Origin: Planctomyces sp. SH-PL14
GTDB taxonomy: Bacteria; Planctomycetota; Planctomycetia; Planctomycetales; Planctomycetaceae
Direction of reading: 5' to 3'
DNA: 64,000 nucleotides
NCBI RefSeq assembly: GCF_001610835.1
Contig: NZ_CP011270.1
Span: forward strand, 310,001-374,000
Below the pieces are notes generated by a model. The model did no database searches. It had not been told where the DNA came from and was given only the letters and a program-made list of their open reading frames with translations. Of the stretch, positions 16,519 through 24,240 are shown one piece after another. Numbering within the stretch: position 1 is the first letter of the stretch; every line of letters begins with the position of its first letter. The translations under genes were made by a program, and so were the position numbers.

Positions 16519-16580
16519 GCCGGGGAGGTGAAGAGAGGGTGTAAGGCCAAACACAGCTCCGCTCACCATCCCCGGGCAGG
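16519..16580. repeat. CCCGGGGACGG hairpin repeat, copy 2
   Basis: Arms GCCGGGGAGGTG and CACCATCCCCGGGC enclose AGAGGGTGTAAGGCCAAACA and CAGCTCCGCT. The interior is the same as at 17194-17258. Lies between divergent genes. Confidence 0.65.
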
Positions 16581-17193: not shown

Positions 17194-17258
17194 ATGCCCG
17201 GGGACGGGAACAGAGGGTGTAGGGCCAAACACAGCTCCGCTCGACCGTGCCCGAGCGG
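17194..17258. repeat. CCCGGGGACGG hairpin repeat, copy 3
   Basis: GCCCGGGGACGGGAACAGAG opens the copy and GACCGTGCCCGAGC closes it; the interior matches copy 2. It lies 20 bp after the exported protein gene and before the IS21 fragment. Confidence 0.65.
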
Positions 17259-17413
17259 TATGTTGAGGGCGGTCCAAAATGGCAGCGGCGGGCGGGGATC
17301 GGGGCGGTCGAATCTGACAGCGCACGGGTGTGCATTTCACGAACGCGGCAGGATGAAGGCGCAAGCCTTCTTCCTGTCTCACGTCCCGGAGGTGCCCAGG
17401 AGTGCGATCCGAT

Positions 17414-17755
17414 ATGGAGTTCTGGAAAGAGGTCCGGCTGCTGGCCCGGACCGGCCAACTCACCTAGCGCGCCGCCTACCGCCAGTACAGCCTCGGTTGG
17501 CGGACCCTCAAGAAGATCCTGGCCCACCCCGAGCCACCGGGATACCGGAAGAACCAGCCACGCCCCAAGCCCAAGCTGGAGCCGTTTCTCCCCATCATTC
17601 AGCAGATCCTGGAGGTGGACCGCACGGCGCCTCGCAAGCAGCAGCATACAGCCAAGCGGAATTTCGAGCGTCTTCGGGACGAGCATGGCTACCAGGGGAA
17701 GCTGACCGTCGTGAAGGACGCGGTCCGGGACTGGAAGCAGTCCCACCAGGAATTG
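17414..17755 (+). pseudogene. IS21-type istA transposase N-terminal fragment
   Basis: The frame reads MEFWKEVRLLARTGQLT, then an in-frame TAG, then RAAYRQYSLGWRTLKKILAH and KLEPFLPIIQQILEVDRTAP to DWKQSHQEL. This is the helix-turn-helix N-terminus of IstA-type transposases. The DDE catalytic domain and istB are absent. At about 17752 it abuts recombinase coding sequence in another frame. Confidence 0.75.
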
Positions 17756-18786
17756 CGGAGTGGCTCTCTCACGGCCGGCAGATCCCGTCGGCCGTAGTTC
17801 CCGAAGAACTCAGCCTCGCCGAATTGTTCGTGGCGTATCGCGACTTCGCGCGGACGTACTACTGGCGTGATGGACAGCCGACGAGCGAGTTCACGGACAT
17901 GATGGACGTGGTCAAGGATGCCGCGTCGCTCTACGGACGGCACACCGTTTCGGATTTTGGGCCCGTCGCACTGAAAGCCGTGCGGCAACTCTGGGTCAAC
18001 CGCGGGTACGTCCGACGGCGGATCAATCAGAAAGTGAATCGCCTCCGGCGGATCATCAAATGGGGAGTGGAGAATGAACTCGTACCGCCCGGGATCCTCC
18101 ACGGTCTTCAGGCCGTTCAACCGCTGAAGGAGAGGCGGACCCCAGCTCCAGAGAGCCAACCGGTTGAGAGCGTCTCCGAGGAGATCGTCCGACCAGTCCT
18201 GCAACACGTCTCACGGCAAGTCGCGGCGATGATTCAGCTTCAATTGCTCACGGGCATGCGCCCCGGGGAGGTGGTTCTGATCCGGCCGGGCGACGTCGAT
18301 CGGAGAGAGGACGTGTGGATCTACCGCCCCCAGCGTCACAAGACTGACTACCAGGGGCATGAACGCCTCGTTTTTCTCGGCCCTCAGGCACAGGACGTCT
18401 TGCGACCGTTCCTGGACCGACATGCCTCCGGATACTGCTTCAGCCCGGCAGAGGCAGAGCAGGAACGACTTGCAAAGCGGAAGGCCACGAGAAAGACTCC
18501 GGGGCAGGACGCGGGCCGACGTCGCCGTGAACGACCAAAGAAGTCGCCGCGTGACCATTACGACCGAGACAGTTACCGTCGTGCAATTCTTTACGGGATC
18601 AAGAAGGCTGGAGTCCCCCACTGGCATCCACACCAGTTGCGTCACACTTGCGGCACGCGGGTCCGAGAAGAGCACGGCCTTGATGCAGCTCAAGTCATCC
18701 TGGGGCACCGATCGGCACGCGTCACTGAGGTCTACGCCTCCGTTAGCGCTTCCAAGGGGCAGTCTGTGGCGCGGCAATTTGGATGA
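17752..18786 (+). CDS. Tyrosine recombinase (integrase), N-terminus replaced by istA fragment
   Basis: Site-specific recombinase of the phage-integrase type, cutting and rejoining DNA through a Tyr. From the junction the frame reads IAEWLSHGRQIPSAVVPEEL, then a SAM-like core-binding domain, then the catalytic domain. TGMRPGEVVLI carries Arg I, HQLRHTCGTR the HxxR pair, LGHRSARVTEVYA the His and nucleophile Tyr (about residue 328). The usual arm-binding N-terminus is missing. The frame is open upstream to 17194 but through istA DNA out of frame, so the real start is unclear and activity is uncertain. A 9-bp gap to the next gene suggests co-transcription. Confidence 0.8.
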   Translation: MAEWLSHGRQIPSAVVPEELSLAELFVAYRDFARTYYWRDGQPTSEFTDMMDVVKDAASLYGRHTVSDFGPVALKAVRQLWVNRGYVRRRINQKVNRLRRIIKWGVENELVPPGILHGLQAVQPLKERRTPAPESQPVESVSEEIVRPVLQHVSRQVAAMIQLQLLTGMRPGEVVLIRPGDVDRREDVWIYRPQRHKTDYQGHERLVFLGPQAQDVLRPFLDRHASGYCFSPAEAEQERLAKRKATRKTPGQDAGRRRRERPKKSPRDHYDRDSYRRAILYGIKKAGVPHWHPHQLRHTCGTRVREEHGLDAAQVILGHRSARVTEVYASVSASKGQSVARQFG

Positions 18787-18795
18787 GAGGGTGTC

Positions 18796-19623
18796 ATGAA
18801 GCGACAGTCTCGTGTTGACGAAGAGCGCTTATGGAACGAGATTCACGCGTTCCAACTCGGACACTTCGCGATCCTTCGCGATTTTGAACACTTGGGAGAT
18901 GTGATTCCCAAGATCTCTCGGAGGATCGGGACGGGGGCTTTGATGGGCCTCACGCTCACCGTGCAGCGTTTGCGGACTGTCATTCGGCTACGGACAGCAA
19001 TGGAGAAAGCAGTCAGACGCGGAAGGGACGAGCCGAAAGCAACGTCGGCGGCCGCCACGTCCATCCTGGAGGCGCACATCGAGGGGTACTCGGAAGAGGA
19101 GACTTTCCTCATCTCCGATCTCAAGAAGTGGGGGTGTGAAGCATTTGAAGCAGACGACGTTTGCCAGGCATTCTTCATCCTCGGGCGCCTGACTGCCTCC
19201 CCTCAAGGTGATTCCACGAGGGATTTCACGCCTGAATTCACTCGCATTGATAATCGCCCGCGCATTCTCGAAGTCGTCGAACGGGCCCTCTCCGGCGGAA
19301 GCGGCGGGCAAACCGTCCTCGGAGAATTAGAGGATGCCTTTAATAAGTGGGCCGGTCCAAAGACCGATCCAGTCAAGTGGGCCGTGCAGAACTTTGCTCG
19401 AAAGTTTTCCGATCTGGAAAAGCTCGTTCTGCAAGTGCTGAAACGCCGTCCAGAAGAGGCATTGTCCGGGGAAGAGGTTGCGGCGGCACTTCCAGCGACG
19501 AAGAAGCGAGGCGAAAGTACGGTCCGAAGTGCCCTATCGCGACTCGTAAATGCAGGAGTCATTCAAAAAAACGCCCTTAAGGCAGAAGGGCGACCGCGCG
19601 GCTACTGGCTCAATTTGTCGTAG
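18796..19623 (+). CDS. Protein with C-terminal winged helix, 275 aa, in the RT module
   Basis: The N-terminal 200 residues are largely helical with basic stretches (EKAVRRGRDEPKATSAAATS). The C-terminal about 65 residues read as a winged helix (LEKLVLQVLKRRPEEALSGE, EVAAALPATKK, STVRSALSRLVNAGVI, GRPRGYWL). It probably binds DNA or a protein partner. It starts 9 bp after the recombinase gene and lies 75 bp before the DUF1580 gene. It may be a regulator of the element or a component of the RT system. Confidence 0.6.
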   Translation: MKRQSRVDEERLWNEIHAFQLGHFAILRDFEHLGDVIPKISRRIGTGALMGLTLTVQRLRTVIRLRTAMEKAVRRGRDEPKATSAAATSILEAHIEGYSEEETFLISDLKKWGCEAFEADDVCQAFFILGRLTASPQGDSTRDFTPEFTRIDNRPRILEVVERALSGGSGGQTVLGELEDAFNKWAGPKTDPVKWAVQNFARKFSDLEKLVLQVLKRRPEEALSGEEVAAALPATKKRGESTVRSALSRLVNAGVIQKNALKAEGRPRGYWLNLS

Positions 19624-19698
19624 CACAATTCTTCTTTGTTCGAACAGATTCCGTCCCCTCGACACGAGTAATGTTCTCCGCCAACTCGTGGAGGACAG

Positions 19699-19980
19699 AT
19701 GATCGACCTGGAACTCGAGACGCTCATTCCCATCGGTGAGGCGCCTCGTCACATCCCAGGGCGTCCGCACAGGGCGACCGTTTGGCGCTGGATCCAGGGA
19801 GGGGTCCGCGGCGTCACGTTGGAATCTGTCTTGATCGGAGGACGCCGGTACACATCGACCGAGGCGATCCGCCGATTTCTTTTGGCAAGCAATGCCACTT
19901 CAGCAGCCCCAATTGTGCCAGTCGCTGCTGGAAGTCGCTCCAAGGTCGATCGCGCGATGCGCGAACTCGAGCTTGGATGA
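19699..19980 (+). CDS. DUF1580 protein, excisionase-like
   Basis: 93 residues. HIPGRPHRATVWRWIQGGVR then LESVLIGGRRYTSTEAIRRF is the MerR/excisionase-like helix-turn-helix plus wing of DUF1580, a planctomycete family usually found next to tyrosine recombinases. It probably binds the element's recombination site or promoter. Its TGA overlaps the ATG of the next gene (ATGA at 19977-19980). Confidence 0.8.
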   Translation: MIDLELETLIPIGEAPRHIPGRPHRATVWRWIQGGVRGVTLESVLIGGRRYTSTEAIRRFLLASNATSAAPIVPVAAGSRSKVDRAMRELELG

Positions 19981-21488
19981 TTCGGATTCACGAGATCGAT
20001 TCCCGGGAATTGAAAGGAACTTACGTGGGCAAACGTATTCGTACGCAGAGCGAACAAGTCGTGAGCTTTCCAACGCCGGTGTCGGCGTTGATCTTCGGTT
20101 CTCCCTATCTAGAACTGGAATACCGGTCACAAGACGCGGAGACCGTAAGAACGTTCTTCGAAACGCGACTTCTTGGCTTTGCCCAGCCGCCTCGATCACT
20201 AATCCAGGAGTGGGCTTATAACGGGCTCACGAAATTCTCCGGCCGACTGGCGCTCGGCCCGGTCTTTCGAGCACTGGTGGGACAGTATCTACCCAGCGTT
20301 CCCGAGAACCGCAGGATTGGTTGGCCTGAACAACTTTCTGACGAACTCGAGAGAACATTCTATGGGCACGTGTTCCAACAGGCTTTCGACTTCATTCGAA
20401 CTTTCGACAGGGGTGTCATTCGCGGATGGAGGCCGCGCCTCTTGGATCAGTTGATCGCACAAGTCATCACCGCCTACCCGGAACGCAACATTGTTGTCGC
20501 ACTCGCCAATGAGCGATCCGGCGTAACGTTGGGTGTGCGGGTGCAGGAGTTGGTTCCAGCCAATCTCCGCAAGTTCTTCGCTTTTCTCAAGAAGGGAGAC
20601 TCAGCACCCTCGGAACGGAGATACTTCTTCGGAGGGATCACCCATTTGCAAGGAGTCGGTGACAATCCAAATCGCATCGATCTCATCCTCCTTGGCGACG
20701 CGCGATTCTGCGGACACGAGTCCGTACCCGAAACGCTTGACGTATACGAACACGCCAAGGTCTTTGCCTTCATCAATGAGGCTTCGCCCCTGAGTGCTTA
20801 CGAGGACGACTTCACGAGGAGCGTACTGGGCTTTGAGGAGATGTGGATCCTTGGCCCCGGAGAGAATGTCCGGTTTCCGTCGATCCGAAAGATCAAGGTG
20901 CCGCGCGGGGAATCGCTGCCATCAACCCTCTCGGAGCTCGAGCTGCTCAAGCGCGGAATCATCCATCACAGGGAACGGAATCGGCTCGTTGTTGAGGTTG
21001 CGGAAAAGGAGAGCGGTTCATCACAGCTCATCGTTGCTGCCAACCTCGAGCACGCACTGCTGCTGGCCAAAAAGCTGCCGCGTTGGCACATCCCCGAGCA
21101 GTACCTCCAACCACGCTGGGCCAAGGTGCAGTACGAGAAGATGCCCCGCGTGAAGAGGACGATGAGCCAGCCTCCTCTCCACATTGTCCCGTGTCCAGAC
21201 TTTCGCCGCGTCCAACTCAGCCTATATCGGCTGATTGTTTACGCTGCGGGCACCACGGAAGTCCCCGACCATATCCAACAAGGACTCCTCTGGCGTCAGC
21301 TGGGCCGATCGTCCGTTGTTACGTGGGTGGACTTCAGCGACCGTCAGCATTGGCGTTTACGGCGCGACGCCGCCAGGCGATTCCAAGAATACGCGAGCTG
21401 GGGATGGGCTCCCGAAGGCCAATCGGTGGGCGAGCTTCGCATCCGTCAGTTCATTGCCCGCAGGATTGCAAACCTTGTATCCCATTAG
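19977..21488 (+). CDS. Helicase-like protein lacking Walker A, partner of the RT
   Basis: 503 residues from ATG 19977, translationally coupled to DUF1580. The C-terminal part resembles the second RecA-like domain of superfamily 2 helicases: ANLEHALLLAKKLPRWHIPE, later HIVPCPD, and the tail VVTWVDFSDRQHWRLRRDAA followed by RRFQEYASWGW. Yet no GxGKT/S Walker A or DExH box is visible in the first half. It may be a helicase-derived protein that binds nucleic acid without ATP hydrolysis. It overlaps the RT gene by about 14 nt. The helicase link is inferred by eye. Confidence 0.55.
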   Translation: MIRIHEIDSRELKGTYVGKRIRTQSEQVVSFPTPVSALIFGSPYLELEYRSQDAETVRTFFETRLLGFAQPPRSLIQEWAYNGLTKFSGRLALGPVFRALVGQYLPSVPENRRIGWPEQLSDELERTFYGHVFQQAFDFIRTFDRGVIRGWRPRLLDQLIAQVITAYPERNIVVALANERSGVTLGVRVQELVPANLRKFFAFLKKGDSAPSERRYFFGGITHLQGVGDNPNRIDLILLGDARFCGHESVPETLDVYEHAKVFAFINEASPLSAYEDDFTRSVLGFEEMWILGPGENVRFPSIRKIKVPRGESLPSTLSELELLKRGIIHHRERNRLVVEVAEKESGSSQLIVAANLEHALLLAKKLPRWHIPEQYLQPRWAKVQYEKMPRVKRTMSQPPLHIVPCPDFRRVQLSLYRLIVYAAGTTEVPDHIQQGLLWRQLGRSSVVTWVDFSDRQHWRLRRDAARRFQEYASWGWAPEGQSVGELRIRQFIARRIANLVSH

Positions 21489-22683
21489 CCACTACCGTCG
21501 GAAACCGATTCTGTTCCCAGGACAACTTGGTTGCGTCGAGAACACAACCGAATTCGAGGAGATCATTGATCATGAAAACCTATTGGCTGCCTTCTATGAG
21601 ATTCGTGAGAAGGGAGACCGTGCGGCTGGAGTCGATAAGATCCGCGCGTTCGACATCGGCCGAATTGAGGCGGCGGAGATGGCGCGAAGCTTGTCGGCCG
21701 CGATCCGTGGCGGACGCTACTGCCCACAGCCTTTCCGAACCGTGTCCATCCCGAAGGCACAAGGCACTTCGAGCGAGACGCAGCGATATCGGAAGCTCCA
21801 GATCCCAACCGTTGCGGATCGATGTGTGTCGCATGCCGTTCACCGGGCAATCGGTCCATTCGTCGATGCCAGGTTCGACGACCGAAGTCTTGGGTTTCGC
21901 CCGGGGCGGGGGATTTGGAATCTGCTCGTCGAATTGGAACGAGAGATACCTCGGAACAACGGGTTTCTGCTTCAAATGGACATTGAGGATGCGTTCCCCT
22001 CGATTCCGTTGCGCCCACTGCTGCAACACGTCGCGTCACTCATCGGAAACGAAAGCTTGGTTTTACTCATCGAGCGGATCGTCCGTCTCGATCGTACCAG
22101 AGAACCACGCGGCCTATCACAAGGAGATCCCCTCTCACCTCTACTAGCAAATCTCGCCCTACACCACACCCACGACCAACTGCAGTCGCAGTTCCTGAAC
22201 CGCCGCTGGTTTCGATATGTCGATAACCTGACATACCTCGCTACCAGCAGCGTCGAGGCACGACGCATTCGCGAGTCCATCTCCGAGACTCTGGCCAAGA
22301 GCGGTCTTCGAATCCGAGTAGACGCCACAGAAACCACGGTTCTCCAAGGAGGATCGGCAGAGATACTGGGCTTCCAAATCGGATCAAAAGACGGGCAACT
22401 GACCATTGAGATCGGAGACAAGGCGAGGGGACACCTCCAAGCCCTGCTGGAAGAATGCGTGCGATCTAGCCGACCAGACGCTCATCGTGACGTCGTGCGA
22501 AGCTGGATCCTCTCAAATGCCCCTGCCCTCGACAGAAGCTCCGGAATACTGGACGAAGTTCAACTTCTCTGTAGTAGCTGCCAGATCCCCATCGAACGAC
22601 ACCACGTTCTGGCCTGGATCAAGACAGCACAGGCGAACTGGCGGAATTTCCGCTCGGTTCACTTGGCTACAGGAGAGGAGTAA
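21475..22683 (+). CDS. Reverse transcriptase, group II-like, with YVDN active site
   Basis: RNA-directed DNA polymerase fold. Visible motifs: AGVDKI near the N-terminus, YRKLQIPTVADRCVSHAVHR, RSLGFRPGRG, motif A QMDIEDAF (Asp about residue 169), LSQGDPLSPLLANLAL, and RYVDNLTYLA at about 247-256, where the usual YxDD is YVDN. LGFQIG and a thumb-like region ending ANWRNF follow. No maturase X-specific endonuclease (HNH) domain is seen. There is no ATG near the start; TTG 21475 or another non-ATG codon inside the upstream gene is likely, implying coupling. It sits last in the recombinase/DUF1580/helicase-like operon. Confidence 0.85.
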   Translation: MYPISHYRRKPILFPGQLGCVENTTEFEEIIDHENLLAAFYEIREKGDRAAGVDKIRAFDIGRIEAAEMARSLSAAIRGGRYCPQPFRTVSIPKAQGTSSETQRYRKLQIPTVADRCVSHAVHRAIGPFVDARFDDRSLGFRPGRGIWNLLVELEREIPRNNGFLLQMDIEDAFPSIPLRPLLQHVASLIGNESLVLLIERIVRLDRTREPRGLSQGDPLSPLLANLALHHTHDQLQSQFLNRRWFRYVDNLTYLATSSVEARRIRESISETLAKSGLRIRVDATETTVLQGGSAEILGFQIGSKDGQLTIEIGDKARGHLQALLEECVRSSRPDAHRDVVRSWILSNAPALDRSSGILDEVQLLCSSCQIPIERHHVLAWIKTAQANWRNFRSVHLATGEE

Positions 22684-24240
22684 TTCGTCTTGGTGCTCCG
22701 CGACCGTAATTTGCTCTCGACCATCTTCGATGGAGAGCACGGATATCGCCTGGAAACGGGCGATTTGGTCGTGGGTGTGGTGCTGGGCGAGTGTCGTCTT
22801 GGTCCGCTTACCGCAATTCCACGATTGGGTGGAGTGTTCCCTTCGACGTCGCCTGGCCCTCACGCGGTCAAAAAACGCTGGGGAGAATCCGTCTGCGAAA
22901 AATTGTTCTGAACGTTGAACCGAGCGGTATTCCGCCGACGATCGAGACCATTTCGCCACGCTGAGGACTTCTGCCTGCTGCTGATCCTCGGGGAGAGTAG
23001 TTTCCGCCGAAAGCAGGGCGTTGCGATAACAAGGCGACGCCAGTGGATTTCCTGAGGCCGCCGGGAATATATGTTCAGTATCCCAAGCACGATTGTCGCC
23101 AAATTCGAGGCGAAAGGTCCTGCCACGCTTGTCAACTTTCCGGCGCCGCAATTGCGCCATTGAATTTCACCGAGTATCGCGGCTTGCCGATGACAATGCT
23201 CTCCATTTTGAGTGAAATGTGGTGGGGCAGCACGGTCTCCTCCGCCCCGATGACCACACGCCACTCAATCGCGTCGCATGGTGGAAGTGACTCGACTCCT
23301 ACTTAACCTCGAGAGAGCCAGGCATCTGATGCAAGGGGCGGCCGCGAGATTAGGTTCGCTCTCTCGCCGCTTGAAAGATCACCGCCTCCATCTAGGTGTT
23401 GCCAAGAATTGGAGACGTGTACTGATTGCTGTCCTCAGTCGAAAATAGTTTTGCTTGACAGGCGCCACGCTCCGTCCACCTTCAGGGCGACGAACCGCAT
23501 TCCGCCGAGGGCGTCTTCACCCACGAATACCGAAACCGTTCCACCGGGCCTCGGAGTGATGGACCGGACTGGTCACGATGTGTGTCGCTGCACTTGCTGT
23601 CGAATCAATAATTGGTCGGACTCGGACAACGTTACCTTGCGTGAGGCGGCCCGATGGCTTGTGTAACCCCAGATTCCATCCGCAGTGACGGCGAAAAACA
23701 GGATCGGACCACGGAGGATGTGTGACAATTTGGCCCACACTACTTTTCCTCGTGTCAGAACGACACGGGATAACCCGTCTATTGACTCCCAACACCTCAC
23801 CCGGTTCACGTTAGGTTAAGCACGGTGCCTTAACTCTGGAATCGATGTCGGGGCCGGTCTGAACGAGACCATAGCACGCCGGGAGCCTGATGTATTGCTG
23901 AAAAGCGTGATCAGCCACTCAGTAGGCGACACGACCGATCCCTCTGATGAACTCCTCGCTCTTCAGTGTGCCGCAACGCGAAAGATCAAGATCACCGTCA
24001 ATGCGGATCGGCGAGCTTCCAATCGTTAATGTGCTTCACGAACTCCGCGGCCAATCGGTGCCTTCCGACGAAAGACTTCGGAGGCGACGCCGCTCTTGTG
24101 TGATGTAAACTCCGTGCTGATGACGACCAGCTGATTCCCTGCTGCAAGCCCCTCCTCCGTTATGGCTTGTGGTATGTCGCACACGGGAGCCATCTGCCTT
24201 TATCGGCAGGCTCCGACTCACTGTTTCAGCCGCGACACTC
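22684..24240. other. 1.5 kb after the RT gene without a confident gene
   Basis: Open frames on the minus strand at 22513-23160 and 23163-23303 have partly protein-like sequence (VVIGAEETVLPHHISLKMES) but lie in different frames, and one overlaps the RT. An 18-nt sequence at 22765-22782 is the exact reverse complement of RT codons at 22162-22179. A decayed gene lies at 23435-23809. Nothing else is recognised from 23820 to 24240. It could include decayed coding DNA or a non-coding RNA for the RT. Confidence 0.4.
23435..23809 (-). pseudogene. Hypothetical protein gene with an in-frame TGA
   Basis: A minus-strand frame opens near 23809 and runs through VVWAKLSHILRGPILFFAVT and ADGIWGYTSHRAASRKVTL to QRHTS, a TGA, and then continues in the same frame as PRPGGTVSVFVGEDALGGMR and FVALKVDGAWRLSSKTIFD. 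The two halves match in style. No family recognised. Confidence 0.35.

Follow-up and report, generated by a model that had tools for sequence, protein, structure and literature searches.

A reverse transcriptase and a predicted helicase-fold partner as a conserved gene pair in Planctomycetia

Which genes around a reverse transcriptase (RT) gene belong with it, and what their products may do together, is the question raised by a locus of Planctomyces sp. SH-PL14. The locus (approximately positions 17414-22683) lies in a window of 64,000 nucleotides (nt), i.e. positions 310001-374000 of an 8.44-Mb planctomycete contig, and encodes a group II-like RT (P0002) preceded by a helicase-related protein (P0001), hereafter the partner. 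A sequence-only reading had placed both genes at the end of a recombinase-borne operon of five genes. Comparative analysis revealed that the conserved unit consists of the partner and the RT alone, while the other three genes, encoding a winged helix-turn-helix (wHTH) protein, a DUF1580 protein and a recombinase, are optional. Loci and genomes retrieved by the searches are denoted by L and G numbers, respectively; positions without a locus number refer to the window, and all its features given below lie on the plus strand.

Linkage of the partner and RT genes

The partner gene (19977..21488; 503 amino acids, aa) overlaps the RT gene (21475..22683; 402 aa) by 14 nt. The RT is assumed to start with a TTG codon at 21475, and the profile match to it begins at 21493. 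Five RTs were distinguished in the same genome with RVT_1. A second pair is located at 3.84 Mb (L008) and shares 32% (partner) and 38% (RT) identity with that of the window; its genes are joined by an ATGA overlap (by coordinates) and its RT has the motif YADN. In the third pair, at 2.77 Mb (L009), which is far diverged, an RT with the motif YADD lies directly downstream of a relative of the partner. The remaining two RTs (L010:4762-6156 and L011:5284-6594) appear by eye to be retron-type and have no partner match. Downstream of the second pair there is a 640-aa open reading frame (ORF; L008:1292-3214) resembling, by eye, an OLD-family AAA/Toprim nuclease, a frequent gene of defence islands.

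When 392 genomes of the phylum were searched with the L008 RT and a two-sequence partner profile, seven further genomes containing both partner and RT emerged. An 11-partner profile matched 49 of 397 Planctomycetia genomes at E ≤ 1e-3, two of them (G603 and G724; loci L133 and L130) weakly and unconfirmed by a refined profile. At most three candidates per genome were scored, so copies may have been missed. The 63 partner-led loci comprise the window, L008, L009, L042-L049 and L082-L133, and 53 of them contain an intact partner, defined by a profile span of at least 330 positions. In 48 of these 53 the partner gene is either fused to the RT gene or directly followed by it on the same strand. 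Single-ORF fusions are present in five loci (L042, L085, L099, L108 and L126), and the RTs of L042 and L085 are 93% identical. The pair was found at unrelated sites across planctomycetes, and the frequency with which the RT accompanies the partner argues against the possibility, raised in the sequence-only reading, that homologues of the two genes occur mostly apart.

Counted from the side of the RT, 58 family members were identified at ≥ 244 bits in the 397 genomes (at most four candidates per genome were scored), and a partner or partner remains were present in the fetched stretch for 54 of them. Over 48 pairs, distances in the partner tree correlate with those in the RT tree (mirror-tree r 0.819), and none of 999 permutations gave a value as high. 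Since the loci counted here share ancestry, P values in this work overstate their independence.

Several loci speak against a strict pairing. No RT was found near the intact partners of L109, L110 and L117, the RT of L102 lies 2 kb away on the opposite strand, and L089 is cut by a contig end. Two family RTs (L146 and L147) have no partner, and the other two partnerless members are situated at a contig edge (L148) or truncated (L150). Four weaker RTs (213-226 bits; L153-L155 and L157), possibly a further sub-lineage, have no detectable partner and fall by tree within the YxDD clade described below; the link between partner and RT is therefore strong, but not absolute.

The wider partner family surfaced only through profiles or via the RT. 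A single-sequence scan of genome contigs with the partner revealed no relative, and none was found on plasmids. No family member was confirmed among viral sequences scanned with the RT alignment; the nearest plasmid and phage RTs among the matches listed either carry a group II RT annotation or have none. The partner profile had no match in L140-L142 or L143-L145, and a genus-level search for further copies of the L100 lineage revealed no new locus. The module is found in mobile or recombining regions: recombinase, insertion sequence (IS) or transposase genes adjoin several partner-RT loci, and several partner copies are fragmented or frameshifted.

Features of the partner, the RT and the spacer between their genes

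No match to the window partner was found in Pfam, PADLOC or NCBIfam, or in the PDB by sequence. An AlphaFold2 model, based on a six-sequence alignment, places the protein in the tandem RecA fold of superfamily 2 (SF2) helicases, with two RecA-like domains predicted at residues ~126-480. The mean predicted local distance difference test score (pLDDT) of this model is 64 and its predicted template modelling (TM) score is 0.45; pLDDT is mostly 70-90 for blocks within residues 131-480 and below 50 for residues 1-125. In a second AlphaFold2 model (mean pLDDT 58.6) the N-terminal domain was left unresolved. Foldseek ranked T4 UvsW, archaeal XPB and RadD at the top (E 6e-9 to 1.4e-8), while VIA-align gave Z values of ~15-16.5 against Hef, eIF4A, XPB and others over residues ~123-481. 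Another member of the partner family (L138) matched XPB at E 1.4e-10. The fold assignment is weakened by the middling quality of the window model, by low TM-scores to helicases (0.2-0.3, with ~0.25 for the top Foldseek matches, and again low for L138) and by the profile comparison with T4 UvsW (probability 1%), in which an RN motif aligns with the RN of UvsW. This comparison is also too weak for UvsW to be named as the helicase ancestor.

The tandem RecA fold (residues 123-481) would thus be shared with XPB, UvsW, RadD and Hef, but motif I is lost in the partner and motif II is degenerate. The site of motif I (20412..20450, placed by eye on the family alignment) reads GVIRGWRPRLLDQ instead of G-x-G-K-T. 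None of the 51 partners that cover motif I has GK[S/T] at this site (52 were aligned; L117 starts later), in agreement with the sequence-only description of a helicase-related protein devoid of Walker A; four members contain GK[S/T] elsewhere in the sequence. D-A-x-x-like remnants of motif II are present in many of the 52 aligned partners and appear degenerate by eye. Since motif I is absent and motif II degenerate, no canonical ATP binding is expected. Residues R334, N335, D455 and R468 of the window partner are invariant in an 11-member alignment, and D452 is nearly so; together they may mark a retained nucleic-acid surface.

The sole Pfam family matched by the window RT is RVT_1 (E 5e-26), and none of the RTs scanned matched endonuclease or maturase families in Pfam, as expected from the earlier description of a group II-like RT without an endonuclease domain. 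The match to TIGR04416 (RT/maturase) reached 169.2 bits (cut-off 300) and extends to position 311 of 353. The active-site motif (22216..22227) reads YVDN instead of YxDD. In a FastTree phylogeny of the 58 family RTs and 12 other RTs, the family members and the RTs of L153-L155 and L157 form one clade (support 0.996), separate from group II-type RTs. The 36 xDN RTs, including that of the window, cluster together (support 0.834), as do the 22 xDD RTs with the four partnerless ones (support 0.934). All 58 family RTs retain the aspartate of motif 3 as well as the first one of xD[D/N]; the tyrosine is not strictly conserved. The xDN change could nevertheless weaken catalysis, which would count against an active enzyme.

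A C-terminal RNase H domain was distinguished in 8 of the 17 paired YxDD RTs and in none of the 31 paired YxDN RTs. Pfam RNase_H was matched by L111 (3e-36), L121 (1.7e-23) and L119 (1.5e-6; degenerate-looking by eye), and the domains of L112 and L116 were assigned by alignment to L111 (68% and 64%, respectively). A profile of L048, L049 and L084 matched a Bacillus halodurans-type RNase H in the PDB (E 6e-32); the domain of L048 had been missed by Pfam. The two RNase H types compare weakly profile to profile (probability 9%), suggesting that the domain was acquired at least twice.

The YxDD and YxDN members differ also in the gap between the two genes, measured from the partner stop codon up to where the RT profile match begins, hence with the RT N-terminus included. 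It spans 148-1417 nt in 12 of the 17 paired YxDD members and never exceeds 125 nt among the 31 paired YxDN members, where fusion reduces it to zero in some; the window is without a spacer (Fisher P 9e-8, indicative only since the loci are related). Two loci of one genome (L106 and L107 of G475; 90% identical) have a spacer of 1.4 kb in which no gene is evident. Six of the 12 gaps were folded in full, giving z-scores of -3.1 (L115), -7.3 (L047), -5.3 (L100), -5.8 (L048), -3.9 (L101) and -5.9 (L104), with no shuffled sequence as low. By eye, several spacers end with a long hairpin right before the RT, with a T-run in L048, L100 and L104. When 13 loci were scanned in 200-nt segments, the spacers of L047, L048 and L115 were prominent, and those of L100 and L101 mildly so. 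The spacers of L048 and L049 differ in 73 of the first 390 columns, distributed over codon positions as 23/30/20, compared with 43/26/86 in the RT gene; because the changes are spread evenly, unlike those of the RT gene, this spacer does not look protein-coding. For three L100-type spacers, RNAalifold predicted 98 pairs, 20 of them with a two-sided change. Judged by these sequence features, we consider the YxDD spacers candidate non-coding RNAs (ncRNAs), lineage by lineage.

Some results do not favour this interpretation. The L048/L049 spacer is conserved at ~81% over 390 columns, less than the RT gene (88%). The spacers of L107 and L009 show nothing unusual in the 200-nt scan, while z-scores of -4 to -5.6 were also obtained inside genes or flanks (L101, L044, L046 and the window). 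The L100-type covariation is based on three sequences, and its covariation term is unfavourable (+1.12). A covariance model built on the 5′ portion of the L100 spacer was significant for its own three sources alone among the 50 sequences searched (E ≥ 0.13 for the rest), and for this reason no single RNA family is claimed across lineages. In Rfam, six other loci gave nothing beyond one chance snoRNA match below the cut-off.

Within the window the stretch ~22591-22790 folds unusually well (z -5.6 in the 200-nt scan), and a 27-nt inverted repeat (25/27) pairs positions 22153-22179 of the RT gene with 22765-22791 of the 3′ flank. No equally strong repeat was found in 54 other loci compared (L099 has a 20-nt one, 19/20), so it was dropped as a clue to a template repeat.

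Neighbourhood of the pair in the window

The coordinates agree with the five plus-strand genes and the spacing described earlier. A tyrosine recombinase gene (17752..18786; Pfam Phage_integrase, E 1e-16) ends 9 bp before the gene of the wHTH protein P0003 (18796..19623), which matches Penicillinase_R at E 3e-4 (21.7 bits, cut-off 22.6). After a gap of 75 bp follows the gene of the DUF1580 protein P0004 (19699..19980; Pfam DUF1580, E 1e-15), presumably an excisionase-like HTH protein, and an ATGA overlap joins it to the partner gene. The view of these five genes as one unit was not borne out by the 63 partner-led loci (62 besides the window), which were compared by blastp at 1e-4: wHTH relatives occur in none of the 62 other loci, DUF1580 relatives in 9 of 63 (8 of the 62 others) and tyrosine recombinase relatives in 6 of 63 (5 of the 62 others).

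The description of the operon as carried by an intact recombinase was not supported either. The window recombinase is 5′-truncated, because a relative found in L118, 62% identical across 346 residues, extends ~44-64 residues further at the N-terminus. The upstream end of the recombinase ORF runs into what is left of the beginning of an IS21 istA gene (17414..17750, ends approximate; assigned by eye and by DNA likeness), the frame of which is broken by a stop. An ORF at 17615-17797 nearly matches, by eye, the istA ORF L008:6983-8557 across ~45 residues, and the DNA at 17353-17697 also resembles this istA (74%, with both read in another frame). The latter ORF is, by eye, an apparently intact IS21-type istA adjoining the second partner-RT pair. 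Upstream of the window recombinase there is a 45-nt direct repeat of 91% identity (16520-16564 and 17198-17242), and a nearby 35-nt stretch (17261-17295) is found again in L008 near the second pair.

Other neighbours recur with the pair. A ParB-like protein, possibly serving a plasmid-like or integrative element, is encoded near it in 13 of the 63 loci (e.g. L044:3590-4486 and L045:3507-4457), in some cases directly before it, and a MerR-like protein is encoded in 9 of the 63.

Known systems and the possible role of the pair

The class closest to the window RT is G2L5, which the accessible parts of two papers describe as three planctomycete group II-like RTs with no intron RNA (PMC4244168, PMC8934634). 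Two of the three come from Gimesia maris, are 28% identical and seemingly reside in transposons, one of them adjoining an InsO-type transposase, according to the part available of PMC8934634. Our family shows a similar picture in genome G385, which holds two family RTs of 29% identity (L042 and L043), with an IS3-type transposase beside L043. The same descriptions, in their accessible parts, differ in mentioning no partner, xDN motif, RNase H or spacer. The window RT probably belongs to G2L5, an assignment made by description, with none of the founder sequences (which include those of Gimesia maris and Blastopirellula marina) in the tree. It is probable rather than certain, because the maturase domain with which G2L3-5 are credited (PMC4244168, as far as accessible) is missing in Pfam, though one G2L5 founder is described in the available text of PMC8934634 as being without GIIM. 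The role of G2L3-G2L5 is given as unknown in the accessible part of a 2015 review (PMC4424553).

The window RT is thus not entirely without a named class: it falls below the cut-offs of TIGR04416 and of retrons (best NCBIfam retron model 61.6 bits, cut-off 235), but probably within this three-sequence class. Compared with the UG/DRT groups, it matched the generic RT profile of PADLOC (147.8 bits) better than UG17, the best UG profile (75.8 bits); among 11 family RTs, all matched the former and seven the latter at 1e-10. CRISPR-associated RTs differ in that the window RT aligns solely to positions 57-274 of 617 in an RT-bearing Cas1 profile, and the five window proteins gave no further cas match, bar weak HTH matches of the wHTH protein. 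As regards diversity-generating retroelements, a repeat search of 15.0-24.6 kb detected no long pair of nearly identical copies that includes the RT, save the 27-nt inverted repeat. None of 11 partner members matched PADLOC, and a literature search, which covered few subscription journals, retrieved no RT paired with such a helicase-like protein and no named system, so the initial impression of an unnamed combination persists.

Our best explanation, in which we have about even confidence as a whole, is a two-component RT-pseudohelicase holoenzyme that copies RNA into DNA and may act as a conditional defence module. That the two proteins form a constant two-subunit complex is highly probable, as this explains most simply why the genes are adjacent, closely packed and at times fused and why their trees correlate. 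The helicase-fold partner, without the usual ATP binding, would be the subunit that clamps nucleic acid and confers specificity, probably bound to the adjoining group II-like RT; such a fold suggests that RNA or a hybrid is held rather than unwound. Active cDNA synthesis by the RT is fairly probable, and the RNase H fusions suggest that the enzyme really makes hybrids. In YxDD lineages the likely template would be a structured RNA encoded between the partner and RT genes, since the structured spacer suggests a cis-encoded template; templates of this type have been reported for DRT2, DRT9 and DRT10. The RNase H domain of some YxDD RTs would then strip away the template RNA. Members of the YxDN lineage, the window among them, have no such spacer, and their genes are fused or closely packed. 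The most likely role would be conditional defence resembling DRTs or retrons, in which the DNA product or a ribonucleoprotein acts on phages or rival elements; we put forward this anti-phage or anti-element function tentatively, by analogy, with confidence slightly short of even.

A role in repair or genome maintenance is the alternative that survives best, though we consider it unlikely. It would resemble that of G2L4, a DNA-repair RT that is group II-like and located outside introns, as is the RT described here. We know of no helicase-fold partner of this sort for G2L4. Its motif is YIDD in the accessible part of PMC4244168, which differs from that of the window RT. A dead helicase could hold branched or RNA-DNA intermediates for filling in by the RT, a group II-like enzyme; the nearest folds do include the repair and recombination helicases XPB, UvsW and RadD, and RNase H fusions would suit RNA removal from hybrids. 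However, the patchy distribution (49 of 397 genomes), the fragmented or frameshifted copies and the mobile setting speak for a role in conflict rather than in housekeeping, and the structured RNA-like spacer of some lineages suits a conflict system better as well.

Slightly less likely still is a mobile or domesticated retroelement derived from group II introns, in which the RT and its helper would serve transposition or retrohoming of their carrier instead of defence. The group II-like nature of the RT, the mobility genes beside several loci, the three diverged pairs of the window genome and the two 90%-identical pairs of G475 are what such an element might leave behind. Mobile group II introns differ, however, in that the window RT scores below the TIGR04416 cut-off and no intron RNA was matched by Rfam at E 1 in the 12-28 kb part of the window; the scanned RTs have no Pfam maturase or endonuclease, and no identical within-genome copies were found among the fetched pairs, while other group II-type RTs recur with identical scores. 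The replacement of one of two adjacent catalytic aspartates across a clade (36 of 58 RTs), a partner without an ATP-binding motif and the fragmented copies could also point to a catalytically weak or dead xDN RT, in which case the pair would be decaying cargo or a complex that binds RNA in a structural or regulatory capacity. This is improbable, as all 58 RTs, despite their deep divergence, retain the other two catalytic aspartates, and the close packing of the two genes, their fusions and the correlation of their trees show that both are under selection.

For the preferred holoenzyme and its defensive role, the nearest parallel is UG17, i.e. DRT10, a defence system composed of an RT, a SLATT protein and an ncRNA (PMC12632851, accessible part). 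According to the same part of that paper, a tyrosine recombinase adjoins two of the three tested systems and the RT motif is YVDD (PMC12632851). Like DRT10 as described there, the present family combines an RT with one neighbour protein and a candidate RNA, and has a tyrosine recombinase nearby in the window. The differences are the partner, SLATT in DRT10 and a predicted helicase fold here, and the motif, YVDD versus YVDN in the window; no SLATT family was matched by the five window proteins in Pfam, PADLOC or NCBIfam.

It is possible, although we regard this fuller picture as rather doubtful, that the RT-pseudohelicase pair represents a new kind of RT system, with YxDD forms that use a cis-encoded RNA and gained RNase H apparently twice or more, a spacerless xDN clade with fusions, and immunity exerted via a DNA product. 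If true, a nearly complete retrovirus-like copying kit, consisting of RT, RNase H and a cis-encoded structured RNA, would be present in bacteria. An orphan RT class is thereby provided with a partner and with an architecture whose parts can be tested. The dead helicase as a neighbour or domain, the apparently repeated gain of RNase H and the replacement of a catalytic aspartate by asparagine throughout a clade raise direct biochemical questions on how RTs are steered and on what they copy. If defensive, the pair would constitute an RT immunity system beyond the UG and retron branches.

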